Positions 28,282 to 45,758 of a DNA stretch of 64,000 nt are shown piece by piece. The notes below the pieces were generated by a model, which searched no databases, was not told the origin of the DNA, and worked only from the letters and a program-made list of their open reading frames with translations. How positions within the stretch are numbered: the stretch's first letter is position 1; the number at the start of each line of letters is the position of its first letter. Source of the stretch: Thermococcus cleftensis (lineage in GTDB: Archaea; Methanobacteriota_B; Thermococci; Thermococcales; Thermococcaceae); the NCBI RefSeq assembly GCF_000265525.1, contig NC_018015.1:1834322-1898321 (forward strand), in the 5' to 3' direction. The translations under genes were made by a program, and so were the position numbers.

Positions 28282-28349
28282 TCCCACCACCGGGTTAGGC
28301 TGAGGGAGAGGGTTTTAAAGGGTTGCGGGAACTTAATGCGGTGGTGGGA

Positions 28350-29588
28350 ATGCCAGGCAGGACCGCCCGAAAGCTCGTCTCTTCCCTACTTCTGCTGACA
28401 CCTGCCGTCGCTATGTTTCTGGAAAACGCCGCCCTAATGGAGATGGAAAGTTTCTTCAAATGGCTTCCAGAGGATATCGCTACGCACCTCATAGAGGTCG
28501 AGTATTGGGTGGTTGATCACATAAGGCCAGCAACGTCTTTGCCAACGGATTACGTTGTTTTTCTAATGGCCTCGCTGATTGTGTTCCTCATTTCCTTTGG
28601 GCTTGCCCTCTTCGCCGGCTGGAAGCTCGGGGGAAGCCGAAGGGACTCGTTGGGCGTTTTCTTCAGCACTTTCCTATCAAGGTACTTCATAGGCGAGCTG
28701 GCAGTTTCAGCGTACGGTCTCTTCCTCTTTGTTCTCTTCGCCGTGATCCTGACGGCATGGCTCCCCGATGCAATCAAGATGGGTAACCCCTGGTTCGTCT
28801 TAGGCACGGTCTTCTACTTCCTCTCGATAATCTTCGCCACGGCCTTTGCCTACCCGGCGCCGAAGAAAAAAGAGAAGATGGATCACCCGAAGACGCGATA
28901 CCTCGTCTACGGCCTGAGTTTCCCTAGCAACTGGGATCTGGTCAATAACGCGAGCTGTGAGGACATGAGGCGCAACAGGAAGATAAACGCGAACGGAAAG
29001 GAAGCGCCCGTTTCCCTCTTTCCCCTCTACGTCTCAATGCACTACCACTTCAAAGACGGCCCGCTTGAGTCCCTTTACCTCCTCGTGACGAAGGAGGCTC
29101 ACTTGGCGAGTCTCGATCCGCCCAAGCTGAAGACCGAGGTGAAGGACCTCCTGCTGCTCTTTTTCGAGAAGGCTTCAAAATGCTTGGACGTGCGGTTCCT
29201 GGTGAGGTGGCCGAGCGAGGACGAAGAGAAGATTGAGAGCGGGCCGGGGAGAACCATCACGGTGAACTTCGTCCCGATCAGGGATTCAAACGACGTCAGA
29301 ATGATATTTCAGGATATCCGCGGCTCCCGGATAGCGGAGCTGATAAAGGAGAACAGCGGGGATGTAACCTTCCATCTGACGGGTGGGACTGCACCGATGA
29401 GCATAGCCATGATGCTCCACGCCATAAAGGGCGACGCCCACGCGGAGTACGCCAGGCAGAGGGTCTTCGACGTTGAACCCAATGATCTACTAGTCTCCGT
29501 GGACATGGACGTCTTTGACCTCGAGGACCTCGTCAGGGAGCTGAGGGACTACTTCGAGAGGCAGTACGAGAAGGGGGAGAAGGACTAG
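28350..29588 (+). CDS. Membrane-anchored CARF-domain protein (4 TM + CARF)
   Basis: 412 residues. Residues 1-170 form about four membrane helices (near 9-28, 67-90, 112-137, 147-168). A Rossmann-like domain follows from TRYLVYGLS (183), with the CARF signature VTFHLTGGTAPMSIAM at 339-354; the xLTGGTxxMS loop is the usual cyclic-oligoadenylate contact. No HEPN, PIN or PD-(D/E)XK motif is visible, so the effector part is probably the membrane module, as in Cam1-type proteins. ATG 28350 follows GGTGGTGGG. Its 3' end overlaps the CARF-PIN gene by 4 bp. cA4-gated membrane disruption is an inference. Confidence 0.75.
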   Translation: MPGRTARKLVSSLLLLTPAVAMFLENAALMEMESFFKWLPEDIATHLIEVEYWVVDHIRPATSLPTDYVVFLMASLIVFLISFGLALFAGWKLGGSRRDSLGVFFSTFLSRYFIGELAVSAYGLFLFVLFAVILTAWLPDAIKMGNPWFVLGTVFYFLSIIFATAFAYPAPKKKEKMDHPKTRYLVYGLSFPSNWDLVNNASCEDMRRNRKINANGKEAPVSLFPLYVSMHYHFKDGPLESLYLLVTKEAHLASLDPPKLKTEVKDLLLLFFEKASKCLDVRFLVRWPSEDEEKIESGPGRTITVNFVPIRDSNDVRMIFQDIRGSRIAELIKENSGDVTFHLTGGTAPMSIAMMLHAIKGDAHAEYARQRVFDVEPNDLLVSVDMDVFDLEDLVRELRDYFERQYEKGEKD

Positions 29589-31042
29589 TCCCCGCCCGAG
29601 AGAACCCTGAAAATCCTGCCGTACTCGAAGCTGTTCAGCCTCACCCTTTCCCTTTCCCAGTCCTCCGAGTTCTTGCCGTGCCAGAGGCCGTGGAGCTTGT
29701 AGGTGTGGACGTTGAGCTCGCCGAGAGTCACCGCCAGCGTGTAGAGCGTGTCCCTCAGCGCCTCCCAGCTCCCCTCAAGGTTCTCCCCGAAGGAGAACTC
29801 CCACTCCAGCCTGAAGGGAACCAGCCCGCTCCCGCGGAGCGCGTCCATCTCCGCGTAGGCCCTGTCGTCGAGGGTGATGACCATCACGTTCGCGTCCTTC
29901 TCCTCGGCGAAGGCCTTGTAGTCGAGGGCTATCTTCGTGTCCCCCCGCTCGTCCCTCCTGCTGTCGGCCCTTTCAGCCCCCATCTCCCTCAGCTTTACCA
30001 GCTCGACCCTGCCGATGGAGGCCAGCCTTGCCCTCGGCGTTGGCTGGTTGGAGTAGGGGCCGAGCTCCCGGTCGAAGGGCAGTTTCTCGTTCACCTGCCG
30101 CCCTATCTCGACCTGAACCTCGTCGGAGTAGGCGAAGTCGAATATCAGATTGCCGTTCCTGTAGAAGTCCCCCTCTGCGATGACCCTTGAAGGAACGCGG
30201 AAGAGGAGGGCGTTAGTGTCAAAGCCGATGTAGAGCGGCCTTCCGGAGCGGAGTAACGCCCTGACCTCTTCCTTCAGCTCGTCCCAGTTCCTGAAGCTCC
30301 CCATTCCCGCTATCACCGCCTCCTTCACCATCGTGTGCCCGCCGTGGAGTTCCCGGTCGAGGGTCAAATACTCCCTCACCCTTATCCTCGCCCGCCTGCC
30401 CAGCTTCACGGACGCTATTTCCTCGCTCCTGACGGCCAGCCTGAACCTCCTCAACCCATCGAGATACAGGGAGTCGAGGAGGGCCATCAGCGACTCCCTG
30501 TTCACGGTGAGGCTCTCCGCAGGGCCCCTCTTCCTACCCGGCAGGGAGACCTTTCCGGGTTTTCCCGTCAGCTCCCCCTTCCTGAAGAGCCTCTGCTCCA
30601 CCATTGGGACCTCGAAGAGCAGCTTCCCTGCGTAGCGCCTCCAGTCCTCCAGGTGGAGGTAGGTTATCTCGCCCGCCCCCCTCGCCATCGCCGCGCCGAG
30701 GAGGAGGGCGCTCATGAACTTCCTGCCGGGGGTTATGTCGGCAATGACCTCATGTCCCTCAGAGACAAGTGAGCCGATGAGCGAGGCGGCCCTCTCCCTG
30801 AACTCCACCGGGTTATCCTCGCTGAACCTCAGGTCTTCGCCGGCGATGACGTTTATCCCCACGCCGTAGGCGCTGGAGAGACGTTCTATCAGTCCCTTCA
30901 CCCCCTCAAGCTGTTCCCTCACGCCGTCGTTCCAGAGCAGGTAAACGGCATCGGGAACCCAGCCGTGAACCTCGACGAGGTACCAGAGGGGGTTGAAGAC
31001 CGCCTCGGGTGAGGTTCCAACGGTCGTCACGTACGCCCTCAT
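29585..31042 (-). CDS. CARF-PIN CRISPR ancillary nuclease
   Basis: 485 residues. CARF domain at the N-terminus: RAYVTTVGTSPEAV and the loop EVIADITPGRKFMSALLLG (D102 to S111). The C-terminal part (about 268-420) looks like a PIN nuclease with acidic residues in IGFDTNALL (D275), EVQVEIG (E308/E312), GDTKIALD (D368/D374) and ITLDDRAYAEMD (D392/D393). It would be an RNase switched on by cyclic oligoadenylate. The true start is ATG 31042 after GGTGATGGC. It is the last gene of a run with Cas6 and a membrane protein. Confidence 0.82.
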   Translation of the reverse strand: MRAYVTTVGTSPEAVFNPLWYLVEVHGWVPDAVYLLWNDGVREQLEGVKGLIERLSSAYGVGINVIAGEDLRFSEDNPVEFRERAASLIGSLVSEGHEVIADITPGRKFMSALLLGAAMARGAGEITYLHLEDWRRYAGKLLFEVPMVEQRLFRKGELTGKPGKVSLPGRKRGPAESLTVNRESLMALLDSLYLDGLRRFRLAVRSEEIASVKLGRRARIRVREYLTLDRELHGGHTMVKEAVIAGMGSFRNWDELKEEVRALLRSGRPLYIGFDTNALLFRVPSRVIAEGDFYRNGNLIFDFAYSDEVQVEIGRQVNEKLPFDRELGPYSNQPTPRARLASIGRVELVKLREMGAERADSRRDERGDTKIALDYKAFAEEKDANVMVITLDDRAYAEMDALRGSGLVPFRLEWEFSFGENLEGSWEALRDTLYTLAVTLGELNVHTYKLHGLWHGKNSEDWERERVRLNSFEYGRIFRVLSGGD

Positions 31043-31046
31043 GCCA

Positions 31047-32261
31047 TCACCCCAGCACGGATTGAACGCCCAAACCGGTCCACAGGCCCGCAAGCAGGGC
31101 CATTAGAGCCAGCAAGCCCGTCCAGAGGGGGCCGAGCTCCTTCCTCTCCTCCCCAAGGGCCACGAGGAAGAACAGGGCAACCAGGAGGGCCGTTATGAAG
31201 GTCCCCTCCCCCGGGCGCCAGAGTTTGGGGAGGAGGGGAACGGAGAGGAGCAGGGCAACCGCGTTCAGCCCCCAGAACCAGAGGTGGGGCGGGATCGAGC
31301 TTTTCCCCTCGTAGTGGAGGGGAGCCAGGGAGACCGCGGAGAAGAGCCAGGCGAAGAGACTCAGCGCGAGGGCACCGAGAGCCAGCAGGGTTGAAAGACC
31401 CTCGTGTCCCAGACCCTCAACGTACATTCCGAGGAGAACAAGGCCGACGAGGACTACCATTCCAACGACCAGGCCGGCGGTCAGCCCCATAATGGCCGCA
31501 ATCGGGTCATCGTCCCCCAGGGAGGTGGCGTAACCCGAGAGGAACATCGCGCCGAGGCCCACGAAGAAGGCCCAGCCCGGGCTCTGGAGGCCGTGGAAGT
31601 GGGCGTAGAAGAGCCACTCGGGGAGGTAGTGGTTTTCCACCAGCCCCGGGGTAGCCAGGAAGAGTGGAAGGGCTATGACAAACATCGCCGGGCCGACGGG
31701 GTATGCGGAGACGTCATCGAAGACCTTCTCGAAGAGCGCCCGCCCGGTGAAGGTCTGGAGGGCGGTGGGAATGAAGGCGAGGGGACCTAGGGCCATGAAG
31801 TAGAGGGCTATTATCAGGACGTCGCCCCCGGCCATCTCCTCTATGACCGCGTTCTCTATCAGGCCGACCATCAGGCCGATGAAGGTCCAGACTATGGCGC
31901 TCGATACAGGGTAGAGGTGGGCGTTCACGACGGCGAGGGGAAGGGTGAGGAGAAAGACGAGCGTTGCCAGCTTCTCGCGGTTCCTGCTCATGAGGAGGGC
32001 GAAGAGGACGAAGGCGAGGCCCGTCGGAATGCCGTAGTAGATTCCATCGAAGTTCCCGGCGAAGAGGCCGGCTATGGCGCCAAAGGCCGGGGCTATGTAG
32101 ATTACGAAGCTGAAGTAGTCGGTCCAGGCGAAGAGCAGGAGTATGAACGCGACGGTCGTGGCGAAGGTGGCGTTCTCTATGTCGGTTTGTGCCAGGAAGG
32201 CCCAGCTGGTCAGGGCCAGAACGAGGAAGCCAACCTTCCGCCTGAGCTCCCAGCTTTTCAT
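31047..32261 (-). CDS. Polytopic membrane protein in the cas6/CARF-PIN operon
   Basis: 404 residues with about 12 hydrophobic segments and no recognised transporter motif. It lies 9 bp after cas6 and 4 bp before CARF-PIN on the same strand, so all three are probably one transcript. The ribosome binding site GAGGGG precedes ATG 32261. It is not a known Cas protein. It could be an unrelated rider or a membrane partner of the CARF system. Confidence 0.7.
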   Translation of the reverse strand: MKSWELRRKVGFLVLALTSWAFLAQTDIENATFATTVAFILLLFAWTDYFSFVIYIAPAFGAIAGLFAGNFDGIYYGIPTGLAFVLFALLMSRNREKLATLVFLLTLPLAVVNAHLYPVSSAIVWTFIGLMVGLIENAVIEEMAGGDVLIIALYFMALGPLAFIPTALQTFTGRALFEKVFDDVSAYPVGPAMFVIALPLFLATPGLVENHYLPEWLFYAHFHGLQSPGWAFFVGLGAMFLSGYATSLGDDDPIAAIMGLTAGLVVGMVVLVGLVLLGMYVEGLGHEGLSTLLALGALALSLFAWLFSAVSLAPLHYEGKSSIPPHLWFWGLNAVALLLSVPLLPKLWRPGEGTFITALLVALFFLVALGEERKELGPLWTGLLALMALLAGLWTGLGVQSVLG

Positions 32262-32270
32262 GGCAACCCC

Positions 32271-32999
32271 TCACGGCTTTTTCTTGAGCGGATTCAGAAA
32301 GCCGAACCCCAGGCTGTTCAGCTCCCCGATTCCGGCGTCCATCGTGAAGGCGTAGAAGTCCCTGTTTGACTCGTTCAGCGGGGCCTCGAGGTACTCCCAT
32401 GTTGTGCCCGGGACGTCGAAGTAGCGCCCGCGGATATTAACCCTGACGTAGATGTCGAGCCAGCCCTTCCTCCTCACCCTCGGGATCATCCTCGTGAAGA
32501 GCGGGCCGTCGAGCTCGAAGTCCTCGCCCGTGAAGGCCTCGTACTTCCTCACGGCCAGCTCGGTGAGCCTCTCGACGAAGTAGGCGAGGCTGTTGTGGTG
32601 GTGGAAGGTGAAGAAGCGACCGTCTCCCGGGGCGGAGAGGACGACGGGGGAGCCGGTTATGAAGGCCTTTCTCGGCCTTAGCCTGAACTTCTTCAGTGAG
32701 ACTATTTTAAGCGCGTGCCTCCCGAGGTAGAGCTTCTCATCTGGGAGGAGCTTCTCGTAGAGCGTCTCGATTAACCCCTCGTCCGGGGAGCTGATTATCA
32801 GGCTTTTCCTTTTGCCCGGCTCGAAGGGCCCGCTGGGGTAGATGTCGGAGAAGGTGAAGAACTTGAAGCCCTTCCTGTCGTGAAGATCAGAGTAATCCGT
32901 CCCGTTGAGGTGGGTGTATATCATCGCCTGGACGGTGTGTTTTCCAACGGCGTAGAAGGGGAAGCTTTCCTCGGGCTCCAGGTCGAGCTTTATCCTCAT
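32271..32999 (-). CDS. cas6: CRISPR RNA endonuclease Cas6
   Basis: 242 residues. By comparison with Pyrococcus furiosus Cas6 (Tyr31, His46, Lys52) the probable triad is Y28 (MIYTHL), H40 (DLHDRKG) and K46. The C-terminal glycine-rich loop GIGELNSLGFGFLNP is the family hallmark. Cas6 cuts the repeat RNA to release crRNAs. ATG 32999 follows GGTGTTTCAGG; the longer frame has no start signal. It is transcribed away from array 1. Confidence 0.93.
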   Translation of the reverse strand: MRIKLDLEPEESFPFYAVGKHTVQAMIYTHLNGTDYSDLHDRKGFKFFTFSDIYPSGPFEPGKRKSLIISSPDEGLIETLYEKLLPDEKLYLGRHALKIVSLKKFRLRPRKAFITGSPVVLSAPGDGRFFTFHHHNSLAYFVERLTELAVRKYEAFTGEDFELDGPLFTRMIPRVRRKGWLDIYVRVNIRGRYFDVPGTTWEYLEAPLNESNRDFYAFTMDAGIGELNSLGFGFLNPLKKKP

Positions 33000-33089
33000 C
33001 CTGAAACACCTTCTCACTAAAAGCTGGAGGGATAAAAAAGCCTTTCGGTCAGGATAGGTAACATAGTTGAGTAACGATGCACACTTGTT

Positions 33090-33793
33090 TTTGAGGCGTT
33101 TTCTCCTTTTCTCTGTTTGGGGCATTACAAATCTCCTCGGGGCCAATGAACGGTAGAAAACTCCGTGCTCCACAAACTGAGATCGATCCGCCCTTATTTG
33201 GTTTTGAGGTGGTGATAGAAAACAGCCAGTTCAAGGGTTCTTCGGCCGTTTGGGGATTTGTAATGGGAGATGGGTGGAGTGATTTCTCCCCTGAACGCTT
33301 TTTTCAGACAAAAAAGCCGTAAAACAACTTTTCACCATTTTACGTTACATAGAAGTAAGTCCGTGCACATGTTTGAAAACAAAGCGTTATGACACCTCCA
33401 CAACTCGAAAGAAACCCTAAAAATCCCCCTACAACTGCGAGGGGAATTTTCTACCGTTTTCCAGACGGGTCTCAAACGGGGCTCTCTGCCGTCTCAGTTG
33501 GGCTTTTGGGGACTTTTCGCGGGGGTCTGGTGGAGTGATTTCCAATGAACGGCGTTTGTTTTCCCCGTGAATTGTTTAGCCTGTCCCGCTGGTCCTCTCC
33601 CTGACGTTATCTTCTTCCCTGGTTTGTTAGGGCTTTTTCTTTCTTTTTCGGCTTTCTTACTAATTGAAGTGGTTTGTGTTGGGGGCGTTTGGAGTCTCCC
33701 TTCTAGGGTTGTTTTCTGAACTTCTGATAACCGCAAAATTTATATGGGAGTTTAACATTACTTTATTTGCCCGAAGGGGCAAAAAAGTTAACC
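33090..33793 (+). promoter_or_regulatory. Leader of CRISPR array 1
   Basis: About 700 bp without a gene between cas6 and the array. It aligns with the leader of array 2 at a constant offset of 9156 bp, with similarity strongest from 33266 on. The TATA box AAATTTATATGG (33736-33747) predicts transcription start near 33770. A 7-bp hairpin TTTGCCC/GGGCAAA (33766-33783, loop GAAG) lies just before the first repeat. The cas6 promoter (GCTTTTTTATCC on the minus strand near 33031) lies just upstream of this leader. ORFs read here are spurious. Confidence 0.85.
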
Positions 33794-34281
33794 GTTTCAG
33801 AACCACATGATGTTTGGAAACGAGCTAATGAAGCTTCTGAAGGAGTTTAACATCACGAACCCCCGCACCCAGCTCCCAGTTTCAGAACCACATGATGTTT
33901 GGAAACTAACCCAGCTTGACGAACTCCTCTGGAGGGAGTGTTTTGTTGTCAATCCACGAGTTTCAGAACCACATGATGTTTGGAAACGTCCCCCCTTCCA
34001 GCGATGCCGTCACAATCTCGGGGTTAAGGTTCACGTTTCAGAACCACATGATGTTTGGAAACAGCGCCTTGAGGAGCTTAAGCTCCTCGTCGACTATGGT
34101 TTCAGAACCACATGATGTTTGGAAACTCGTCCATGGAGCCACTGACGTCGACGAATACTATGAGGAGTGGCGCCTTCTTGTTTCAGAACCACATGATGTT
34201 TGGAAACTGGGCCAGGTACTGTAACCACAGGTTTTTGTCGAACCTGATGTTGAGTTTCAGAACCACATAATGTTTGGACGC
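33794..34281 (+). CRISPR. CRISPR array 1 (7 repeats, 6 spacers)
   Basis: The 28-bp repeat begins GTTTCAGAACCACAT, has G at position 16 and ends GTTTGGAAAC. Repeats start at 33794, 33879, 33960, 34035, 34099, 34180 and 34254. Spacer lengths are 57, 53, 47, 36, 53 and 46 bp. The last repeat has A at position 16, the array 2 type, and its final four bases are degenerate (ACGC), which marks the trailer end. The orientation is leader at low coordinates, transcription on the plus strand. Confidence 0.97.
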
Positions 34282-34657: not shown

Positions 34658-37072
34658 TTGAAGCAGGACGTCGAAACGCTGGCCCTCGCCGCCGCCCTTC
34701 TGCCACTGGGCAGGGTGCTGTCGAGGGCGGGCCGCGGTTCCCCGGGAAAGGCGGGGTTCGAGTTTCTCGTTGGGCTTTCAGAGAGGTCAGGGAGGGAGGA
34801 ATACAGGAGGGTCGCACCGTTCCAGTTGCTCCTCGACGGGTGGGAGGCCTTCGCGGACTCGGTGAGCGATGAGAAAACCCTAAAGTTGGGGAGGGCCATC
34901 TTCGAGGCGATGGAACTGCTCGGGGAGTGCCGCGAGGAGGACCCCTCCACTCCCCTCGTCTCCGTCTTCACGCTCGTGGACATCGGCAAGGGGAGTCCCG
35001 AGATGCTCTACTACCGGCCGGTGGAGCTGGACCTCGGAAAGGAGTTCCCGACACCGGAGAGGGAGGTGGAGGTGACCCCCGCCTGGTACTCCGACGTGGT
35101 GGGGCGGATAAGCTACGCCCTCTCACAGCCCGGCCAGTACCCGGACTCAAGCAGGGTCATGGCGGTTCTCGAGAGATACCTGACCTTCGTGCCCGCCTGC
35201 ACATCGGACCCAAGGGTTTCCCTCTACGACTACTCCCGCATGCTCTCGGCCCTCGCGGTGTCGCTGTACCTTGCCGGGGAGGCGGAGAAGCCGTTCCTCT
35301 TCGTGGAAGGTGACCTCTCGGGCATCCAGCGCTTCGTCTTCACGATAACCTCCAAGGGAGCGCTCAAGATGCTCAGGGCCAGGTCGATATACCTCGACCT
35401 CCTGGCCTGGGACGTCGTGCTGGAGGTACTCGGAAGGCTCGGCCTCCCGAGGTCTTGCATCATCTACAACGGCGGGGGTGCGTTTACTCTCATACTCCCC
35501 AACACCGATGACACCATTTCAACCCTCCGCCGCGTCAGGGAAAGGCTGGAGCGCTTCCTACTCGGGGAGTTCGACGGCTCCCTTTACCTCGCACTCGACT
35601 GGGACGAGGTTGGCAGGGAGGAGATGAGGACCTTCAGAAACGGAAGCCTCTGGAGGGACATGAAGGCCAAGGTCGGGGAGAGGAAGAGCAGGCGGTTCCT
35701 CGATGTGATAGGTGAGTTCGTCGATTCCGATGGCTTCCACAAGCTGGAGGAGTGCGCCGTCTGCAGGAAGCAGATAACGCCCGCCGAGGCCAAGAAGTTC
35801 ACGATACGGAACGAGGAGGGGGAGGAGCTCAAGCTCTGCGGGCGCTGCTACGAGCTGTGGCACCTCGGAACGGCCCTGCCCAAGACCGGCCTCTTCGTCA
35901 GGATTGGCGGGGAAAACCTCGAGGAGTACGGTGAGGATCCGAAGAGCTCCGTTCTGTTGTCGTTCTCCCGCATCTACTGGTTCGACGACGTGAAGATGCT
36001 GTCCGAGTGGAACGTTCCGCCCGGTTCGGAGGTACTGCTGAGGAACAGCCTCGACCTGTGGAAGGTTCCGGGAGAGTACCGCGCCTATCCATATGTCGTC
36101 GCCGACTACGCGAGGCTGACGCTGGAGAACGGCAGGAAGGCCGTGATGGAATTCAAAAAGCTGGCCGAGAACTCGCTGGGGGCGGAGAGGATAGCGGTCT
36201 TCAAGGCCGACGTCGATAACCTCGGTCTCATATTCAGCAGGGGACTTAAGGACAGGAACCCGGCCCTTGTCGCGAGCCTCTCAAGGCTGATGGACTACTT
36301 CTTCAAGGCCTACCTCGTGTCCATAATCTCGGGGAGACTGGAGAAAGGGGCCCTGCCCGACGACGTGCCGAGGCTTCCCACCGCGAGGGAGCTGGGGAAG
36401 GAACGACACCAGGGGCTGAGCCAGACACCCGCCAACGTGGTCGTCGTCTACGCCGGCGGCGATGACCTCTTCATCGTTGGCGCGTGGAACGAGGTCTTCA
36501 ACCTGGCCTTCCTCATCAGGGAGACGTTTTCGGCCTACACCGGGAGGAACCCGAACGTGACGATGTCCGCTGGGATAGCGACCTTCGCCCACGACTTCCC
36601 AGTGTCGAGGATGGCCCAGGTGGCTGAGGAGAGGCTCGAAACGGCAAAGGACGAGGGCAAGGACCGTGTTTACATAATCGAGCGCACCAGCCCGAGGGAC
36701 TATGGCTGGGACTTAAGCTTCCCCGTCTCCTACCGCTGGGGCGGGTACAGGGAGCTGTGGCGCAGGTACGCCGGCAAATTCAGGGTAACCGCCGATGGAC
36801 TGCAGGTCTGGAACGGGGAGCGCGGAAGGTGGGAAAGGGTGCCCAAGTCACAGCTCTGGAAGCTCCTCGAGCTGAGGGAGCTTTACGTCCGCAACCCGGA
36901 CGGGATAAGGTGGAACTACCTTCTCGCTTACTACGTCTCCCGCATGGAGCTGGAGGGGGTCTTCAGGGATCTCGTCTCAATCGACCTCCAGCTCCTCTCG
37001 AGGGGAGAACCCCAGAGGATATACTGGATCGACGGGGTTCTGAAGCCCCTCCTCCTTGCGGTTAGGGGGTGA
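34658..37072 (+). CDS. csm1: Cas10/Csm1 with intact GGDD but no HD nuclease motif
   Basis: 804 residues, the large subunit of a type III-A complex. The second palm domain has YAGGDDLF (GGDD at 600-603) and KADVDNLG, so cyclic oligoadenylate synthesis should work. A zinc site is formed by CAVC (C366, C369) and CGRC (C394, C397). The N-terminal HD motif is gone: where family members have LLHDIGK this protein has LLPLGR (residues 14-19), the usual SLYDHS is SLYDYS, and there is no histidine before residue 361. DNA cleavage by the HD domain is therefore not expected. TTG 34658 is the start, supported by GGTGATG. Confidence 0.93.
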   Translation: MKQDVETLALAAALLPLGRVLSRAGRGSPGKAGFEFLVGLSERSGREEYRRVAPFQLLLDGWEAFADSVSDEKTLKLGRAIFEAMELLGECREEDPSTPLVSVFTLVDIGKGSPEMLYYRPVELDLGKEFPTPEREVEVTPAWYSDVVGRISYALSQPGQYPDSSRVMAVLERYLTFVPACTSDPRVSLYDYSRMLSALAVSLYLAGEAEKPFLFVEGDLSGIQRFVFTITSKGALKMLRARSIYLDLLAWDVVLEVLGRLGLPRSCIIYNGGGAFTLILPNTDDTISTLRRVRERLERFLLGEFDGSLYLALDWDEVGREEMRTFRNGSLWRDMKAKVGERKSRRFLDVIGEFVDSDGFHKLEECAVCRKQITPAEAKKFTIRNEEGEELKLCGRCYELWHLGTALPKTGLFVRIGGENLEEYGEDPKSSVLLSFSRIYWFDDVKMLSEWNVPPGSEVLLRNSLDLWKVPGEYRAYPYVVADYARLTLENGRKAVMEFKKLAENSLGAERIAVFKADVDNLGLIFSRGLKDRNPALVASLSRLMDYFFKAYLVSIISGRLEKGALPDDVPRLPTARELGKERHQGLSQTPANVVVVYAGGDDLFIVGAWNEVFNLAFLIRETFSAYTGRNPNVTMSAGIATFAHDFPVSRMAQVAEERLETAKDEGKDRVYIIERTSPRDYGWDLSFPVSYRWGGYRELWRRYAGKFRVTADGLQVWNGERGRWERVPKSQLWKLLELRELYVRNPDGIRWNYLLAYYVSRMELEGVFRDLVSIDLQLLSRGEPQRIYWIDGVLKPLLLAVRG

Positions 37073-37076
37073 ACGT

Positions 37077-37685
37077 ATGGGACACGGCCATAAAAACTAC
37101 TCAAATGGTGGGCTCCAGTCCCACCAGAGGAAGCACGGCAATGGCGGGGGTTGCAACACTTCGGTGGTGTCGGAGGCACTCCAGAAAAAGCCCATCGACG
37201 CGGTGCGCCTCAGGGAGGCCATATCCAGCTGCAAGCAGCTGAACTCCCTGGAGGGCGTCATAGGGAAAACCTTCGGGAAGACCCTAACGGCCATGGAAAG
37301 GTTCTTTGAGGCAACCCCGCGGGAGAGGCTGGACTGGGCCATAGTGGTGGCGGCCTATCTCAGGGTGCTGAACCTCAAGACCAACCAGGTCAGGAAGGTG
37401 CTCGACCTGTCGAGGGATATATACTTCGACTTCGAGTTCAGGGGCGACCACTCCAGCGAAGAAAGGATACAGTCGAAGCTCATGAGGATGCGCTTCCTCC
37501 TGGCCTACTCGGTAGGAAAGGCCGACCGGAGGGATGTCAAAGCTCTCGAGGCACTTCACAAGGCCCTTGATCCAATCCTGCTCAAGGTCTCGGCTTCGCC
37601 TACAAGGGAGAATTTTGAGGCCGTTTACGATTTTATTCAGGCCGTTATAGCCTACCACCGCTTCCTCGGAGGGAGAGAGAAATGA
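37077..37685 (+). CDS. csm2: Csm2 small subunit
   Basis: 202 residues. The helical core from about residue 40 onward (LREAISSCKQLN, and LRVLNLKTNQVRKVLDLSRDIYF) matches Csm2, which lines the target RNA along the backbone. The first 30 residues are rich in Gly, His, Ser and Asn and look disordered. ATG 37077 follows GGGGGTGAAC. It is longer than many Csm2 proteins because of this tail. It overlaps csm3 by 4 bp. Confidence 0.88.
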   Translation: MGHGHKNYSNGGLQSHQRKHGNGGGCNTSVVSEALQKKPIDAVRLREAISSCKQLNSLEGVIGKTFGKTLTAMERFFEATPRERLDWAIVVAAYLRVLNLKTNQVRKVLDLSRDIYFDFEFRGDHSSEERIQSKLMRMRFLLAYSVGKADRRDVKALEALHKALDPILLKVSASPTRENFEAVYDFIQAVIAYHRFLGGREK

Positions 37686-38563
37686 CCGATATGAACCGGC
37701 TCGTTTACGGTAAGGTCATAATCAGGGGGCGCATCAGGGCCGTGACCGGGCTGCACATAGGGGCCCAGAGGGAGGTCTCCGAGATAGGGGGCATTGACAA
37801 CTACGTGATAAAGGACCCCGTGACGGGGCTGCCCTACATACCCGGCTCCTCTCTGAAGGGCAGGCTCAGGGGACTCCTCGAGCTGATGGTCAACACGGAG
37901 CTTGAGAAGGGAGGCAACGTTCCGAGCCAGATAAAGTTGAAGTACAAGCCCGGCTACTGCACTGTTGAGGAGATTAAAAACAAAAAATGCGACAGGTTCT
38001 TCAACAGGGCCGTTGGGAAGGTCGTCATCCACGTCTGCGACGAGTACGAGACCGCCAGGGTCTGCCCCGTCTGCAGGCTCTTCGGTTCGAGCGGAAACAG
38101 CAACTTCCCCTCGAGGGTAATCGTCAGGGACGCCAGGCTGGCTGAGGAGTGGGTGGATAGGTGGAAGGCGGGCGAGGAGATAACCGAGGCGAAGGTAGAG
38201 GTCGCCATCGACAGGGTCACCTCCGCCGCGAACCCGAGGACGAACGAGCGCGTCGTTGCCGGGGCGGAGTTCGAGTTCGAGATAATCTACACCATCGAGG
38301 ACACCGCCCAGTGGAAGGAGGACCTCAGGAACCTGTTCTCGGCAATGAAGATGCTTGAGGACACCTACCTCGGCGGTTCGGGTTCCAGGGGCTATGGAAA
38401 GGTCGAGTTCAGGCTCACGGAAATCGTCTTCAGGCCCCTTGAATACTACACCGAGAACGGCGAGGAGAAAACGCTCGTTAAGAAGGCGCCGAATGAGGCA
38501 CTCACCATCGAGGGGGTGAGGGGTTCGTTCGATGAACTGTTCAAACTCAGCATCGGGGGATGA
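37682..38563 (+). CDS. csm3: Csm3 (Cas7 group) target-RNA cleaving backbone subunit
   Basis: 293 residues, RAMP fold. GRIRAVTGLHIGA is followed by GGIDNYVIKDP, whose Asp (D39) corresponds to the catalytic Asp of Csm3 that cuts target RNA at 6-nt steps. IPGSSLKGRLRGLLE is the glycine-rich signature, and CDEYETARVCPVCRLFG is a Cys-bearing insert. Intact D39 suggests active RNA cleavage. Start ATG overlaps the csm2 stop. Confidence 0.93.
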   Translation: MTDMNRLVYGKVIIRGRIRAVTGLHIGAQREVSEIGGIDNYVIKDPVTGLPYIPGSSLKGRLRGLLELMVNTELEKGGNVPSQIKLKYKPGYCTVEEIKNKKCDRFFNRAVGKVVIHVCDEYETARVCPVCRLFGSSGNSNFPSRVIVRDARLAEEWVDRWKAGEEITEAKVEVAIDRVTSAANPRTNERVVAGAEFEFEIIYTIEDTAQWKEDLRNLFSAMKMLEDTYLGGSGSRGYGKVEFRLTEIVFRPLEYYTENGEEKTLVKKAPNEALTIEGVRGSFDELFKLSIGG

Positions 38564-39492
38564 GGATGATAGCAGTCAGGCTCAGGTTCAGGGGGCCCCT
38601 CCACGTGGGGCTTCACTCCCTCGACAGCGCCGGCGTCGTGGTTCACTCGGATACGCTATTCGGTGCCATAGGCTCGGTGCTCCCGAGGCTCGGCATCAGC
38701 ACCTACGAGTTCGTCGAGGCAATGCGGAACGCGCGCATCTCCTCGCTCTTCCCCTTTGACTCCGAGCACTACTACCTGCCGAAGCCCGTGAACGCGAACT
38801 CCCTCGTGCTCGGGACCTTCGCAGACACGCCCGAGGGCTACGCCCTCTCGAAAAGGTTCAGAAAGGCACCCCTCCTGACGAAGGAAGCCTTCGAGATGGT
38901 GGTGGGTGGAAGGATAGAGGCGGAGAGGCTGGGGGAGCTGCTTCCAGAGGGCCTACCTGCGCGGATCGTGGATATCCCGAAGGTCGCCCTCGACAGGCTC
39001 GCCTCCAACTCCAACATATTTTACATGACCCAGGTCCACTTCAGGGAGGACGCAGGTTTGTACTTCCTCTACGAGGGGAGCGAGGAGATCTTCAGGAGGT
39101 ACATCCTCCCCGCCGTCAAGTTCCTGGGCGACGAGGGGCTGGGTGGCAAGAGGAGCTGGGGACTCGGCCTCTTCGATTTTGAGATCGACAGGAACTTCAG
39201 CTTCTCGGGACTTCCGGAGAAAAGCGAACGCTACGTAACCCTCTCCCTCGTGCTCCCGAAGAGCAGGGAGGAGGTGCTCCAGTGGGAGCCGGTCAGGCGC
39301 TCCGGCTGGGTGCACACCACCGGCGGCACGCCCAGGAGGAAGCCCACCATGCTCTTCGCGGCTGAGGGCTCGATAGTCAGGGAGAACGCGGGAAGGATAC
39401 TGGACCTCGACGAGATAGGAGAGTTCTCAAAGGAAATAGGGCACAGGGTCCACGTCTACGGCAGGGCGTTCCCGGTGCCCATGGGGGGTTGA
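38560..39492 (+). CDS. csm4: Csm4 (Cas5 group) subunit
   Basis: 310 residues with LRFRGPLHVGLHS near the N-terminus, HSDTLFGAIG, and the C-terminal glycine-rich GGKRSWGLGLFDFEI loop. Csm4 caps the 5' tag of the crRNA and contacts Cas10. ATG 38560 overlaps the csm3 stop. It ends 3 bp before csm5. Confidence 0.92.
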   Translation: MRMIAVRLRFRGPLHVGLHSLDSAGVVVHSDTLFGAIGSVLPRLGISTYEFVEAMRNARISSLFPFDSEHYYLPKPVNANSLVLGTFADTPEGYALSKRFRKAPLLTKEAFEMVVGGRIEAERLGELLPEGLPARIVDIPKVALDRLASNSNIFYMTQVHFREDAGLYFLYEGSEEIFRRYILPAVKFLGDEGLGGKRSWGLGLFDFEIDRNFSFSGLPEKSERYVTLSLVLPKSREEVLQWEPVRRSGWVHTTGGTPRRKPTMLFAAEGSIVRENAGRILDLDEIGEFSKEIGHRVHVYGRAFPVPMGG

Positions 39493-39495
39493 TGC

Positions 39496-40614
39496 ATGAA
39501 GCTAACCGTCCTGTCTCCACTCCACATCGGGAACGGCAACGAGCTGACGGTTATAGACGTGCTCCCCCTCAATGACGGCAGGATAGCGGTGCTTGACCTT
39601 GAAAGGCTGATGCTCGAGCTCACGAGCGCGGGGGCAGACGTCGAGGAGATACTGACGCTGGTAAAGGCCCCCGACATAATGGAGGACATGTACATCTGGA
39701 AGAGGTACCTCTCAGACTACGGCGTTGGGCTGGAGAAGGTTAAGAAGTACACACTCCCCGTGGTGGGTCGCATAGCACCGAGGAGCATGAGGATAAGGGA
39801 GTTCATAAAGTCCAGCGGCAGGCCGTACATACCCGGCTCGAGCGTGAAGGGTTCCATACGGACGGCCGTCTTCTACCATGTTGCCTTAAAGTACCGGAGC
39901 AGGGTAGAGAAGTTACTGGAAAAGCTGGCGGATTCAGAAGGTAGAATCAACCCAAAACGTGCCGACGATGAGCTGGAGATGCTTGTATTCGGGTACGCCA
40001 GGGGGAGGAGGGGCAGAAGAAGGTACGAACCGAAGAGGGACCCGATGAGGGCGCTGGTGGTCAGGGATAGCGAGCCCCTGAGCATCAGGAACCTGAAGGT
40101 GTACGCCGTCTCGACGGTCGGAGGGAAAAGCGAGATACCCCAGTACGTGGAGGGCGTTGAGGGCATCGACGTTGAAATCGAAATCAGGGTAGATAACGAG
40201 CTGCTCTCCCGCGCCATGAGGGCCGGGGAGCTGAACGGGCTCCTGGCGGATACGATAAAGGGGAAGGAGGACTTCGAGGACCTGATATGGAAGGCCATAG
40301 ACAGCTTCTCCAGGGAGGTCATCTCCTTCGAGAGGAGGGAACTCCGCAAGTACGGCGCGTTCAGGGAGAGCGTCGGGCGGTTCTACTCCCAGCTCGAGAG
40401 GATGGAGGGCCACAAACTCAGGGTGGGCTGGGGAAGCGGCTGGTACTCGATGACCCTCGGTCCCCTGATACTAGGAACAGATTTCTTCAAACACATACGG
40501 AGAAAATTCCAGCTCGGCAGGAAGCCTGGGACCCATGCCCTCTCAGGGGACTTTCCAAAGACCCGCCGCGTGGCGAACTCCAGGCCGATGGGCTGGGTGA
40601 TCCTCCGAGAGTGA
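39496..40614 (+). CDS. csm5: Csm5 (Cas7-like) subunit
   Basis: 372 residues, RAMP protein with LTVLSPLHIGNGNE at the start, RPYIPGSSVKGSIRTAVFY (glycine-rich signature) and the C-terminal LRVGWGSGWYSMTLG. Csm5 sits at the crRNA 3' end and takes part in maturation. GGGGGTTG precedes ATG 39496. Confidence 0.92.
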   Translation: MKLTVLSPLHIGNGNELTVIDVLPLNDGRIAVLDLERLMLELTSAGADVEEILTLVKAPDIMEDMYIWKRYLSDYGVGLEKVKKYTLPVVGRIAPRSMRIREFIKSSGRPYIPGSSVKGSIRTAVFYHVALKYRSRVEKLLEKLADSEGRINPKRADDELEMLVFGYARGRRGRRRYEPKRDPMRALVVRDSEPLSIRNLKVYAVSTVGGKSEIPQYVEGVEGIDVEIEIRVDNELLSRAMRAGELNGLLADTIKGKEDFEDLIWKAIDSFSREVISFERRELRKYGAFRESVGRFYSQLERMEGHKLRVGWGSGWYSMTLGPLILGTDFFKHIRRKFQLGRKPGTHALSGDFPKTRRVANSRPMGWVILRE

Positions 40615-40620
40615 GGTCCG

Positions 40621-41625
40621 TTGGAGGTGCCAGTCTTGGGCGTCTACCACGTCTCCGGACTCGGGCTGAGCCCCGGCGCCCTGACGATGCCCCTGACCGC
40701 GGTTTACATACTCCAGGCCGCGGCACAGATGGGACACAACGGGGCGAGGGACTTCTTCAGGCTCTCCGGGGAGGCTGGAGAGAGGAGCGGGAGCAGGGAG
40801 AAACACCCCGGCATGCCCGAGGTCGTGATAGTCTTCGACACCCCCGAGGCAATAGATGGAAAACTCAGGCTCACCTATGACTCCAGGTGGTTCAGGGGGC
40901 TTTCCAACATGCGTCAGAGGGAGGAGCCCATACACAGGCCTATCGTGAAGTACCTCTGCAGGCTCTGGGACTGCCTCGAGGGCCTCGGGGTCGAGCTGAA
41001 GAGACCCAAGCACTTCTACCTCGTCAAGGTGAACCGTCAGGACTTCGACGAGGTCTTTGACAGGGCCACCACGCTCTTTTACGGTATCAGGAGGAAGGAG
41101 GTCTGGGTCAACCTCATCGGGGGCAGCAACCAGATAAACCTCGCCCTGATGATAGCCGGCAGTTACACGATGGTGCCGAGCAGGTACTACTACGTCTTCC
41201 AGGACGCGCCCCTCCTCGAGCCGGGGTGGCTGGAGAAGTGCCCCAGGGACGAGCATGAGGTCTTCAAGTGTGCCAACGAGATACTCAACAGGTGGAACGA
41301 CTTGCCACCCCTCAACCTCGGGGTCGGCTCGATACTCAGGAGCCTCCTCGAGAGGTTCTACACGGCCAAGGGGAGTGCCTACATAAGCAAGTCCGAGGTG
41401 CTTGATATACTGGAGAAACGGGGCTACACCGAAAAGTTCATACCGAAGCTCATAGAGGCCGGCTACATAACCCCTGTGGACGGGGACACGTTCACGATGG
41501 GTCCATTCATAGAGAGGAGCTGGAGGCTCTTTGGAGCCGCCCTGGAGCACAGCAGGATCGACAGCATCGGAAAGTGGAGGGAGCTGATGGGGGACAGCCT
41601 CGTGGAGGTGCCGTTCGAATGCTGA
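40621..41625 (+). CDS. CARF plus winged-helix protein of the csm operon
   Basis: 334 residues. The N-terminal 200 form a CARF-like domain: VLGVYHVSGLGLSPGAL and the loop VWVNLIGGSNQINLALMIAG (161-180). Residues 250-295 (YISKSEVLDILEKRGYTE, then LIEAGYITPVDGDTF) look like a winged helix. No HEPN R-x4-6-H motif is present, so it is not a typical Csm6 RNase. It may be a cyclic-oligoadenylate-responsive regulator. Start is uncertain: TTG 40621 after GAGGT, or GTG 40627. It overlaps csx3 by 7 bp. Confidence 0.75.
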   Translation: MEVPVLGVYHVSGLGLSPGALTMPLTAVYILQAAAQMGHNGARDFFRLSGEAGERSGSREKHPGMPEVVIVFDTPEAIDGKLRLTYDSRWFRGLSNMRQREEPIHRPIVKYLCRLWDCLEGLGVELKRPKHFYLVKVNRQDFDEVFDRATTLFYGIRRKEVWVNLIGGSNQINLALMIAGSYTMVPSRYYYVFQDAPLLEPGWLEKCPRDEHEVFKCANEILNRWNDLPPLNLGVGSILRSLLERFYTAKGSAYISKSEVLDILEKRGYTEKFIPKLIEAGYITPVDGDTFTMGPFIERSWRLFGAALEHSRIDSIGKWRELMGDSLVEVPFEC

Positions 41626-41924
41626 GGTTCAGGGTCAGAGAGGTGGACGAGTTCACGGTGGTGGGCTTCGAGGTTGAGGGTATCCTCGAGCCGAAAGTCC
41701 TCAGGGATCTGAGGCCACCGGGGGTCAATCCCAGGAAGGGCGTCATACTCACGGGGAGGGGCCCCATATGGCTCTACGGTTTTCTCGTTCACTTCTACCA
41801 CCCAACCGTTTGGGTGGCCACCTACGACCCCCGCATCGGGGCGGTGGTGGTCGAGTCCCACGTCCCCGATAAAAGCCCTGGGGATGTAGTGGCCATAGAC
41901 CCCGAGGAGATTTTGGGGAGGTAA
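41619..41924 (+). CDS. csx3: Csx3 ring-nuclease family protein
   Basis: 101 residues. The family block GVILTGRGPIWLYGFLVH, then WVATYDPRIGAVVVESH, is clear. H61, D70 and R72 have the spacing of the residues I recall as important in Archaeoglobus fulgidus Csx3 (H60, D69, R71). That protein degrades cA4 and so switches off CARF effectors. ATG 41619 lies inside the end of the CARF gene, with GGAGGTG 8 nt upstream. Confidence 0.87.
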   Translation: MLRFRVREVDEFTVVGFEVEGILEPKVLRDLRPPGVNPRKGVILTGRGPIWLYGFLVHFYHPTVWVATYDPRIGAVVVESHVPDKSPGDVVAIDPEEILGR

Positions 41925-41942: not shown

Positions 41943-42212
41943 ATGGCGCGCTACTACATAGTCGTCTACGACGTGAACGAGAAGAGGGTCGTAAGGGTGC
42001 ACAAAATACTGAAGGCCTACCTCCAGTGGCGCCAGAGGAGCGTCTTCGAGGGTTGGCTCGATGGGAACGAGGTCGCCGAGCTGAAGAGGAAGCTCTCGCG
42101 GGCGATAAACGAGGAAGAGGACTCGATCCTCTTCTACTCCCTGCCGAGCGACTCCAACCTCGTCACCTTCCACCTCGGCAGACCCCCGGACGAGTTCGAC
42201 AACGTCATCTAA
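41943..42212 (+). CDS. cas2: Cas2 adaptation protein
   Basis: 89 residues with YYIVVYDVNEKRV (catalytic-type Asp in YDV), RRQ-like RQRSVFEGWL and ILFYSL. Cas2 forms the integrase complex with Cas1. It is the last gene of the csm run, 18 bp after csx3, with GGTGGGACC before ATG 41943. Its partner cas1 is on the far side of array 2. Confidence 0.95.
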   Translation: MARYYIVVYDVNEKRVVRVHKILKAYLQWRQRSVFEGWLDGNEVAELKRKLSRAINEEEDSILFYSLPSDSNLVTFHLGRPPDEFDNVI

Positions 42213-42949: not shown

Positions 42950-44103
42950 GTTTCAGAACCACATAATGTTTGGAAACCGACATTTTTCTGCCTCCCAGAT
43001 CTTATCCACAATACTACACGCAACGTTTCAGAACCACATAATGTTTGGAAACAAAAGGGGGCCCACTACAAAATTCCTCATGGTTCACCCCTCCACAAAG
43101 TTTCAGAACCACATAATGTTTGGAAACGAACGGCTCATTCTCGAAATACACACCCGTGACGGAATTATAAGTTTCAGAACCACATAATGTTTGGAAACTG
43201 GGGAGCACCCCGTCAACGTTACCGTCGTTGAAGTCTATCGTGACCCTACCGTGTTTCAGAACCACATAATGTTTGGAAACGACACCCTCAATCTCAAACT
43301 CAACGAGGGTGTAGTCCTTTCCTTCTTCTTCTGTTTCAGAACCACATAATGTTTGGAAACCCACGCTGACGATATAGGACACAACCTTACCGAGTGGGCT
43401 ATCCGACTTGTTTCAGAACCACATAATGTTTGGAAACCATCCTTGAATAGTGCAGCGAAAGTTATTTCGACACGGTCCCAGAGCACAAGTTTCAGAACCA
43501 CATAATGTTTGGAAACCGCATTCTGAAATCTCTGGAGAGCATGCAAACCATATGTTCCCCTCGGGATCGTTTCAGAACCACATAATGTTTGGAAACTCGA
43601 TGCTGCTGACAGCGTCGTGGACCTCGCCGTAGTGGTAGTTCCTGTTTCTCAGGAGTTTCAGAACCACATAATGTTTGGAAACTCATGATTGGAGCCAGAT
43701 TACCAACCCGCCCTCCGAGTTTCAGAACCACATAATGTTTGGAAACACCCTACCGCGGCGGTAATAGATTACCTCCCCCTGAATGGGTTTCAGAACCACA
43801 TAATGTTTGGAAACGCTATGGCCAATATGAACGGTACAACGTACGCCAGGAACATGTTGAGTTTCAGAACCACATAATGTTTGGAAACCTTTGATGTGCG
43901 GACTTCCGACGGAAAAACCTTCGACATTGACCCGTGTTTCAGAACCACATAATGTTTAGAAACCCCACCGCGCTTCCGGTGTTCATCGCGAGGTTTCTCG
44001 TCGAGACTATGCGGGCGGTTTCAGAACCACATAATGTTTGGAAACTTGCTTGGCTCTTTGACTCACGTAGTTCACACGATGTTTCAGAACCACATAATGT
44101 TTG
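42950..44103 (+). CRISPR. CRISPR array 2 (16 repeats, 15 spacers)
   Basis: The repeat is as in array 1 but with A at position 16. Starts: 42950, 43025, 43100, 43171, 43253, 43333, 43410, 43489, 43569, 43655, 43719, 43787, 43861, 43936, 44018 and 44081. Repeat 14 has one change (TTTAGAAAC). The last repeat is cut after 23 bases (to 44103). Spacers measure 47, 47, 43, 54, 52, 49, 51, 52, 58, 36, 40, 46, 47, 54 and 35 bp. Leader at low coordinates; plus-strand transcription. Confidence 0.97.
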
Positions 44104-44109
44104 CCGCAA

Positions 44110-44119
44110 GGTTTTTATC
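44110..44119 (+). promoter_or_regulatory. TATA box of cas1
   Basis: GGTTTTTATC begins 6 bp after the truncated last repeat and predicts start near 44142, giving cas1 its own promoter. Confidence 0.55.
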
Positions 44120-44160
44120 CCGTGCTGTGCACCTTTCTTCAGGCCAGCGGGGGGAGCATT

Positions 44161-45102
44161 GTGAAGTATCCTCTCTTCATAACCGACCACGGGAGGCTTG
44201 AGAGGCAGTCCGGTTCCCTCGTCTTCGTCGGCAGGCTTGAGAAGAGAACCATACCCCTCGCCCAGGTGAGCGAGGTTCACTGCCTCGCGAGGGTCTCCCT
44301 GACGAGCGGGGCCGTTGAGCTGCTGAGCGAGAGGAGGATTCCAGTTCACTTTTACTCCACGCGGGGCGATTACAGGGGCTCTCTCATAAACGACGCGTCC
44401 CCGAGGGGCAGGCTTCACCTGGCCCAGGCGGAGCACCACCTCGATCCCGAAAAGAGGCTCTTCATAGCCCGGGCCATCGTCCAGGGGATGCAGAACGCGA
44501 TGGCATTCACCCTCTCGCGCTGGGGCGTAAACCCCGTAAAGCTCAACTCCGTGAAGGTTGATGGGGGTAGCGTGGACGAGCTGATGGGGAAAGAAGCTGA
44601 GCTCTGGAACCACTTCTACCGGTACTTCGGCGATGCCCTCGGGGTCGAGTTCAGGCGCACGAGGCGTCCCCCGGAGGACGAGCTCAACGCCATGATAAGC
44701 TACGCCAACGCCGTCATCTACGGTCTGGCCCTCTCATCTGCCATGAAGGTCGGCCTCGACCCGGCGATAGGTTACCTCCACGCGGTGAATGACAGGAGGT
44801 TTTCCCTCCCGCTAGACCTGGCCGATATTTTCAAACCCCTCTTCGTCTTCTCCACGGTTAAGTCCCTGTGGGGCGAGAGGGGAAAGGGCGACTTCACGAG
44901 GAAGGGGAAGGCCGTTTACCTCTCCCGGGCGGGCAGGAGGAAGCTCCTGAAGGCGCTGACAGGGACGCTGAGGAGGACCGTCTACTACAAACCCTGGAAG
45001 AGGAGCGTCAGCTACCGCTCGATAATGGAGATGGAGGCGAGGAGGCTCAGGAGGCACCTCCTCGGCGAGGAGACCTACGGTCCCTTCAGGCCCTGGTGGT
45101 AG
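44161..45102 (+). CDS. cas1: Cas1 integrase
   Basis: 313 residues. Likely metal ligands are E145 (GKEAELWNHFY), H207 (GYLHAVND) and D222 (LDLADIFKP), in the order typical of Cas1. The start is GTG 44161 (KYPLFITDHGRL) after GGGGGAGC; a longer frame runs into the array. Cas1 with Cas2 inserts new spacers. It is separated from cas2 by the whole array 2 and its leader. Confidence 0.95.
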   Translation: MKYPLFITDHGRLERQSGSLVFVGRLEKRTIPLAQVSEVHCLARVSLTSGAVELLSERRIPVHFYSTRGDYRGSLINDASPRGRLHLAQAEHHLDPEKRLFIARAIVQGMQNAMAFTLSRWGVNPVKLNSVKVDGGSVDELMGKEAELWNHFYRYFGDALGVEFRRTRRPPEDELNAMISYANAVIYGLALSSAMKVGLDPAIGYLHAVNDRRFSLPLDLADIFKPLFVFSTVKSLWGERGKGDFTRKGKAVYLSRAGRRKLLKALTGTLRRTVYYKPWKRSVSYRSIMEMEARRLRRHLLGEETYGPFRPWW

Positions 45103-45154: not shown

Positions 45155-45237
45155 TCCGTTGAGGATTCGCCCCGTACAGTGACTCTTCTAGCAGGGCAGT
45201 GAGACCGGCTCAAATAAAGGGTTCTGGAGGTGGTTTT

Positions 45238-45510
45238 TTGAGGGGTAGGGATTTCTGGCACTACGTTTTTGAGGTTGAGGACATGGACGGCGATGCTGTT
45301 ATAGAGATGACCTTTGAGGCCGGTAGCGCCTCCGTGAGAATAAGGGACGCGAACCACTACTCCCTCCTTCTGTCGCCGAAGCTGAACCGCGACAACCTTC
45401 TCGCCCTCACCTACGTAATATCCAAGTACGTTGAGCGCGTCCTCACGCCCGAGGAAATAAGGGCCCTCCTCAGGAACCCCGGCGAGGAGGTGAGAGGGTG
45501 CCGGGAGTGA
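45238..45510 (+). CDS. Small uncharacterised protein A (90 aa) beside cas1
   Basis: 90 residues from TTG 45238 (LRGRDFWHYVFEVEDMDG), preceded by GGAGGTGG. The first half is beta-rich, the second helical (NLLALTYVISKYVERVLTPEEIRALL). It shares this layout, and single positions such as ERV and RALL/RARLL, with the next gene, so the two look like a tandem duplicate. The alternative GTG 45199 lacks a good site. The TATA box TTTATAAAC (45110-45118) lies upstream. Function unknown. Confidence 0.6.
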   Translation: MRGRDFWHYVFEVEDMDGDAVIEMTFEAGSASVRIRDANHYSLLLSPKLNRDNLLALTYVISKYVERVLTPEEIRALLRNPGEEVRGCRE

Positions 45511-45758
45511 GGACGTACCGGAAGTTCAAGGTGGCCATCGATGAGGAGGGGACGGCCATTCTGGACCTCTTCGGGAATTCGGAGAGCACGGTCGAGGTTG
45601 AGCTGACGCTCTACGATGACCACGCCCACTTCCACCTGCCCGGCGTCTCCCTGAGGCTACCCTACACCGAGGAGAACGCGAAGGTGCTGGTGGAGTTCCT
45701 CAGGATATTTGCCGAGCGCGTGAAACTGGAGGAGGAGCGCGCGAGGCTCCTCCGGTGA
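45498..45758 (+). CDS. Small uncharacterised protein B (86 aa), paralogue of A
   Basis: 86 residues. TYRKFKVAIDEEGTAILDLF begins a beta-rich half; ENAKVLVEFLRIFAERVKLEE is the helical half. It overlaps protein A by 13 bp and has GGAGGTGA 4 nt before GTG 45498. Probably a partner of A in one complex; function unknown. Confidence 0.6.
   Translation: MPGVRTYRKFKVAIDEEGTAILDLFGNSESTVEVELTLYDDHAHFHLPGVSLRLPYTEENAKVLVEFLRIFAERVKLEEERARLLR

Follow-up and report, generated by a model that had tools for sequence, protein, structure and literature searches.

The window analysed here, a 64,000-nucleotide stretch of Thermococcus cleftensis DNA, carries a type III CRISPR locus built around csm1/cas10 (34658..37072, + strand), which is translated from a TTG start into a protein of 804 amino acids. 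The protein is identified as Csm1/Cas10 by an NCBIfam profile search (TIGR02578, 507 bits against a cut-off of 170) and by Pfam matches to the Csm1_B and palm2 domains; in a PDB search its closest solved relative is Csm1 of Thermococcus onnurineus (4uw2, about 450 bits), to which its AF2 model (mean pLDDT 83) gives TM values of 0.86–0.90 (6muu/6mus). Four further genes follow on the + strand, csm2 (37056..37685, TIGR01870), csm3 (37682..38563, TIGR02582), csm4 (38560..39492, TIGR01903) and csm5 (39496..40614, TIGR01899), and the csm1–csm5 operon belongs to type III-A: the Csm2 domain and the NCBIfam equivalogs for Csm1, Csm3, Csm4 and Csm5 each score above their cut-off. A genome profile search for further Cas10s returned the single palm2 match of Csm1, which rules out a second, HD-bearing Cas10 elsewhere in this genome.

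Two CRISPR arrays flank the operon, array 1 with 7 repeats (33794..34281) and array 2 with 15 (42950..44045). Outside array 1 lies cas6 (32271..33173, − strand), while cas2 (41943..42212, +, PF09827) and cas1 (44101..45102, +, PF01867) stand on either side of array 2. Two small ORFs beside cas1 (45199-45758) were assigned to no family, and are conserved near the cas genes of four III-B loci in other genomes (G039, G044, G017, G067).

The N-terminal part of Csm1 is where this protein departs from its relatives. An earlier note had proposed that over 34658-35738, which corresponds to Csm1 residues 1–360, this Cas10 had lost its HD nuclease, and had suggested an alignment with T. onnurineus Csm1; we made that alignment and extended it to the Csm1s of 22 other genomes, found by searching 94 Thermococcaceae genomes, and the loss holds. 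The HD site was defined by the columns invariant in 20 full-length HD-bearing Thermococcaceae Csm1s rather than by T. onnurineus ligand numbers. Every HD-site residue so defined (window numbering; invariant in 20 of 20 relatives) is replaced in the window protein: H15 and D16 correspond here to L and P, H29 to P, H59 and H60 to L and D, D85 to M, and H192 to Y. Of the further invariant positions, K19, P20, V21 and Q22 read R, V, L and S, N86 reads E, and R23 is unchanged. Thus the HD motif proper has become L-P (residues 15–16, 34700..34705, +), the FHH motif L-D (residues 59–60, 34832..34837, +) and the ADN motif M-E (residues 85–86, 34910..34915, +), and the histidine of SLYDH is a tyrosine (residue 192, 35231..35233, +), as the note's reading of SLYDHS as SLYDYS had implied. 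Its companion reading of LLHDIGK as LLPLGR was right as to the loss and wrong in the printed string, which aligns as ALLPLGR, one residue longer.

Translation confirms that the first histidine is residue 361, the only others being 402, 584 and 645. Residues 1–360 therefore contain no histidine at all, against 6–8 in the HD-bearing relatives, and, judged from these invariant columns and histidine counts, the loss of the site is not a matter of chance. Because no histidine precedes residue 361, no replacement ligand is on offer elsewhere in the protein, and the locus encodes no HD protein that could bring one in as another subunit; an upstream HD exon or a mis-called start is likewise ruled out by in-frame stops upstream of 34658. 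The HD motif and the further N-terminal ligands that mark an HD-nuclease Cas10 are thus missing together. What appears to persist is the fold: helices 2–88 of the AF2 model have a pLDDT of about 93, and residues 1–205 (34658..35272, +) are predicted to form a degenerate HD-fold domain, one that has also evolved at an accelerated rate (see below).

The remaining catalytic and structural sites are intact. Csm1 has its four zinc cysteines, C366, C369, C394 and C397 (35753..35848, +), and a palm2 domain (36188..36670, +; PF22335, 123.6 bits) that retains the nearly invariant columns of the alignment, including the metal-binding D518 and D520 (DVD) and GGDD at 600–603, so that cyclase activity is predicted; the zinc cysteines and GGDD had already been described as intact. 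In Csm3, the catalytic Asp39, part of a GGIDN motif, is present and is invariant in 21 Csm3 homologues.

The HD site is kept in 21 of the 23 Thermococcaceae Csm1s, namely the 20 full-length sequences, which read LLHDIGK or a near variant, and a partial one (G060, LLHDIGK). The second loss is in the Csm1 of genome G016, 58–61% identical to that of the window, where the motif is LLHSIGR and the other HD positions are gone as well. In a tree with bacterial outgroups these two form the sister group of all HD-bearing Thermococcaceae Csm1s, with support of about 100 with or without the HD columns, which excludes a position nested within the HD-bearing sequences. The outgroup Csm1s of Thermus and Fusobacterium have the HD site, and the loss is therefore derived; three of the five bacterial III-A homologues examined (Nostoc, Thermocaproicibacter and Rhodothermus) are without it. 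Within the window/G016 clade the evolutionary rate of the HD domain is about 1.8 times that of the remaining protein (bootstrap 1.17–3.05; 0 of 60 replicates at or below 1), and the two proteins are 48% identical in the HD domain against 70% in palm2, their best-conserved part.

The three CARF proteins mentioned in the earlier note are confirmed by PADLOC profiles. CARF-TM (28323..29588, +; PDLC01944, 499 bits) is a predicted membrane effector with 3–4 hydrophobic segments. CARF-PIN (29585..31093, −; PDLC01973, 711 bits) combines a CARF domain with a PIN domain whose four acidic residues, D292, E329, D385 and D409, are invariant in 15 homologues; matches of this protein to TAL effectors in the PDB search were dismissed as chance repeat matches, since no stretch passed alone. 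CARF3 (40621..41625, +; PDLC01427/PDLC01864) carries a probable winged helix at its C-terminus, modelled by AF2 as helix-helix-strand-strand (pLDDT 71); a fold search with CARF3 gave no significant match, none falling below E 0.007. A fourth signalling gene, absent from that note, is csx3/crn3 (41574..41924, +; PF09620, 106.7 bits). Csx3/Crn3 is a ring nuclease that degrades cA4, and the five residues named in the Archaeoglobus fulgidus enzyme, H57, H60, D69, R71 and H80 (PMC7371418), have equivalents at the same spacing in the window protein, which is accordingly a predicted cA4 ring nuclease. The locus thus joins a Cas10 lacking the HD site and retaining an intact cyclase site to predicted effectors of cyclic oligoadenylate (cOA) signalling, the combination that characterizes HD-less, signalling-only type III systems. 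Next to CARF-PIN lies a polytopic membrane protein of 404 amino acids, TM404 (31047..32261, −), with about 11 hydrophobic segments; it matches no Pfam or PADLOC family, and many type III loci of Thermococcaceae likewise have it beside CARF-PIN.

The presence of CARF genes alone does not entail loss of the HD nuclease, as the csm locus of genome G072 is HD-bearing and nevertheless carries CARF-PIN and CARF-TM, which weakens the case for CARF genes as the cause. The better correlate is the loss of Csm6 together with the gain of Csx3. In all 17 HD-bearing csm loci that are readable at this point, the next gene after csm5 encodes a CARF-HEPN (Csx1/Csm6) protein, a family assigned by clustering with two members profiled; this Csm6-type gene is found in neither of the two HD-less loci (window and G016), nor elsewhere in either genome, and both loci carry CARF-PIN, CARF-TM and Csx3 instead. 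Furthermore, cas6 directly precedes csm1 in the HD-bearing loci, whereas the window cas6 is divergently oriented and of another type, 90% identical to that of G039 and 78% to that of G016, and only 43–47% to those of the HD-bearing III-A loci. The CARF3–csx3 pair occurs elsewhere inside cmr operons (cmr3-CARF3-csx3-cmr4), in which, by motif search, Cmr2 is always without an N-terminal HD motif where its N-terminus is readable. Taken across loci, csx3 accompanies an HD-less Cas10 in 10 of 10 cases with a readable N-terminus and is present at 0 of 23 HD-bearing loci (Fisher p = 6e-5, a descriptive value, as the loci are related and not independent).

The locus adjoins genes for RLI and a HypE-like protein, and in six other genomes (G016, G039, G044, G022, G031 and G021; RLI 86–95% identical) a type III locus occupies this site too, giving seven species including that of the window, in all of which Cas10 is HD-less. 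The cas6, cas1–cas2, CARF-PIN, CARF-TM and csx3 genes of the window belong to this III-B chromosomal site. The comparison with G039 is especially close, as the two are collinear, with host flanks mostly 77–86% identical, 96.7% nucleotide identity across TM404, CARF-PIN and cas6 (29599-33048), 91–96% in the cas1-side segments, and matching CRISPR repeats. The space between the two arrays holds csm1–5, CARF3 and csx3 in the window and an HD-less cmr operon in G039 (C3:112936-121854). This is best read as an exchange of effector cassettes between III-A and III-B within one frame, and the arrays would be the obvious homology flanking the exchanged cassette. A 43-nt element is present in four copies (33244, 33500, 42400 and 42656), two of them upstream of each array at a spacing of 256 bp; these duplicated leader segments may have offered homology for the exchange. 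In G039, the CARF-TM of the window (28323-29588) is replaced by a diverged homologue (C3, about 126200-128000) within the island that is otherwise near-identical, a second module swap.

We interpret the locus as a complete III-A (Csm) complex whose Cas10 acts in signalling only, seated in a III-B-type slot and using that slot's cas6, cas1–cas2, repeats and effectors, a reading to which we assign a probability of roughly 85%. Conserved residues are the basis for predicting RNA cleavage, cyclase activity and effector action, and by this reading the binding of target RNA would activate both Csm3, for cleavage of that RNA at Asp39-type sites, and the palm domains of Cas10, for production of cyclic oligoadenylate. 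Given a gene in the locus for Csx3/Crn3, a ring nuclease that degrades cA4, this molecule is the likeliest messenger; it would then act on CARF-PIN, presumably an RNase, on CARF-TM at the membrane and on CARF3, possibly a regulator, until Csx3 switches the signal off. The HD domain would remain as a scaffold fold without a metal site and would not cut single-stranded DNA, because the metal ligands are absent. The csm cassette occupies a slot that holds HD-less III-B cmr cassettes in relatives, and would be served by that slot's own cas6, cas1–cas2, repeats and effectors in place of the cas6-csm-csm6 arrangement of HD-bearing III-A loci. The pattern of sites lost and kept therefore favours the proposal, made in the earlier note, of a locus that has given up DNA cutting by Cas10 and would act through Csm3 RNA cleavage and second messengers. 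CRISPR DNA cutting has not been lost from the cell as a whole, since two type I-B systems elsewhere in the genome have Cas3 proteins with intact HD motifs (HDLGK/HDVGK) and should still provide it.

The strongest competing view concerns evolutionary cause only, and leaves the function of the system as described: the HD site may have been lost neutrally, independently of its surroundings, with the III-B-type effector suite a coincidence. We consider this a serious contender, at somewhat short of even odds. Type III-A Cas10s lack HD in about 35% of cases generally (PMC11229360), as do the three bacterial homologues named above, and a single loss event separates the two Thermococcaceae groups, so that the association with effectors amounts to one III-A data point. 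Against coincidence stand the restriction of csx3, in both subtypes, to HD-less loci (10 of 10, against 0 of 23 HD-bearing loci, with the non-independence already noted), the accompanying absence of csm6 and the placement in the III-B site. A bolder and rather doubtful suggestion is that the signalling suite sets HD retention in the Thermococcaceae, such that the Csx3/CARF-PIN cA4 slot tolerates only an HD-less Cas10, be it in Csm or Cmr, while Csm loci with a Csm6-type CARF-HEPN keep the HD site; if so, subtypes could exchange effector cassettes within a fixed frame of cas6, cas1–cas2, repeats and effectors.

Much less probable is that the whole Csm module is decaying, with loss of the HD site as a first step of pseudogenization and Cas10 signalling also out of use. 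The window/G016 clade does sit on a long branch, and csm1 of G016, its only other member, has two frameshifts (L037 9110-11555) and may be decaying in that lineage. However, both shifts fall at or close to short runs of G/C, where an assembly error could account for them, the neighbouring csm genes of G016 are open, and in the window csm1 is intact, as are csm2–5, cas6, the CARF genes and csx3, all of them open. The checked catalytic residues of palm2, Csm3, CARF-PIN and Csx3 are also intact, and conservation is greatest in palm2 (70%) rather than the HD domain (48%). Slightly less probable again is that the degenerate domain, whose fold is still predicted, cuts or handles DNA through non-canonical ligands, or that another protein such as one of the two I-B Cas3s with intact HD motifs supplies the nuclease in trans, given the complete lack of histidine in residues 1–360, the lack of any HD protein encoded in the locus, the position of both cas3 genes in type I-B operons and the fact that we know of no precedent for Cas3 acting through Csm.

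The T. onnurineus Csm complex (4uw2, 6muu, 6o7h) is a III-A system with an active HD single-stranded DNase. As the closest solved relative it shares the subunit set, fold, palm/GGDD and zinc site; it differs from the window, where all HD-site residues are replaced, no csm6 follows csm5, and CARF-PIN, CARF-TM, CARF3, Csx3 and III-B-site cas6/cas1 are present. An HD-less Cas10 making cOA, as predicted here, is known from the signalling-only Cmr system of Vibrio metoecus (VmeCmr), but that system is III-B, its HD domain is absent rather than degenerate, and it uses cA3 with the DNase effector NucC (PMC8682760). The HD-less cmr loci of Thermococcaceae (G039, G044, G036) have CARF-PIN, TM404 and CARF-TM of the same families and related cas1–2 and cas6, with the same chromosomal site in G039 and G044, the CARF3–csx3 pair in G044 and G036 and the same repeat in G039; they differ in having a Cmr1–6 cassette where the window has Csm1–5. 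The predicted activity of Csx3, finally, is that of A. fulgidus Crn3 (PMC7371418).

An HD-less Cas10 is itself a known and common type: in a survey of 1113 type III loci, HD was found in 39% overall (61% HD-less) and in 65% of III-A, and a cyclase in 92% (PMC11229360), and shuffling of type III modules has been described as extensive (PMC12669027). What is less expected is the swapped effector cassette around csm1, set among the alarm proteins of a III-B locus. The observations place a loss of HD on one branch beside the T. onnurineus reference family and point to a III-A/III-B exchange in a single slot. Besides the half-eroded sister (G016) there is G039, whose near-identical frame holds a III-B complex. 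This offers a natural pair for comparison, with which one might ask whether the collateral-effector suite, rather than the complex, decides if Cas10 needs DNA cutting, and whether one set of crRNAs, cas6 and effectors can serve Csm and Cmr alike.

Some smaller features are also recorded. On a Nostoc plasmid (L165 1-2773), csx3 lies directly before an HD-less III-A cas10. In the two window arrays spacer length varies between 36 and 58 bp (mean 48.4, s.d. 6.0), far more than in an I-B array of this genome, whose repeat period is 67.3 (s.d. 1.1), and one spacer (34063-34098) contains an 18-nt self-complementary stretch.
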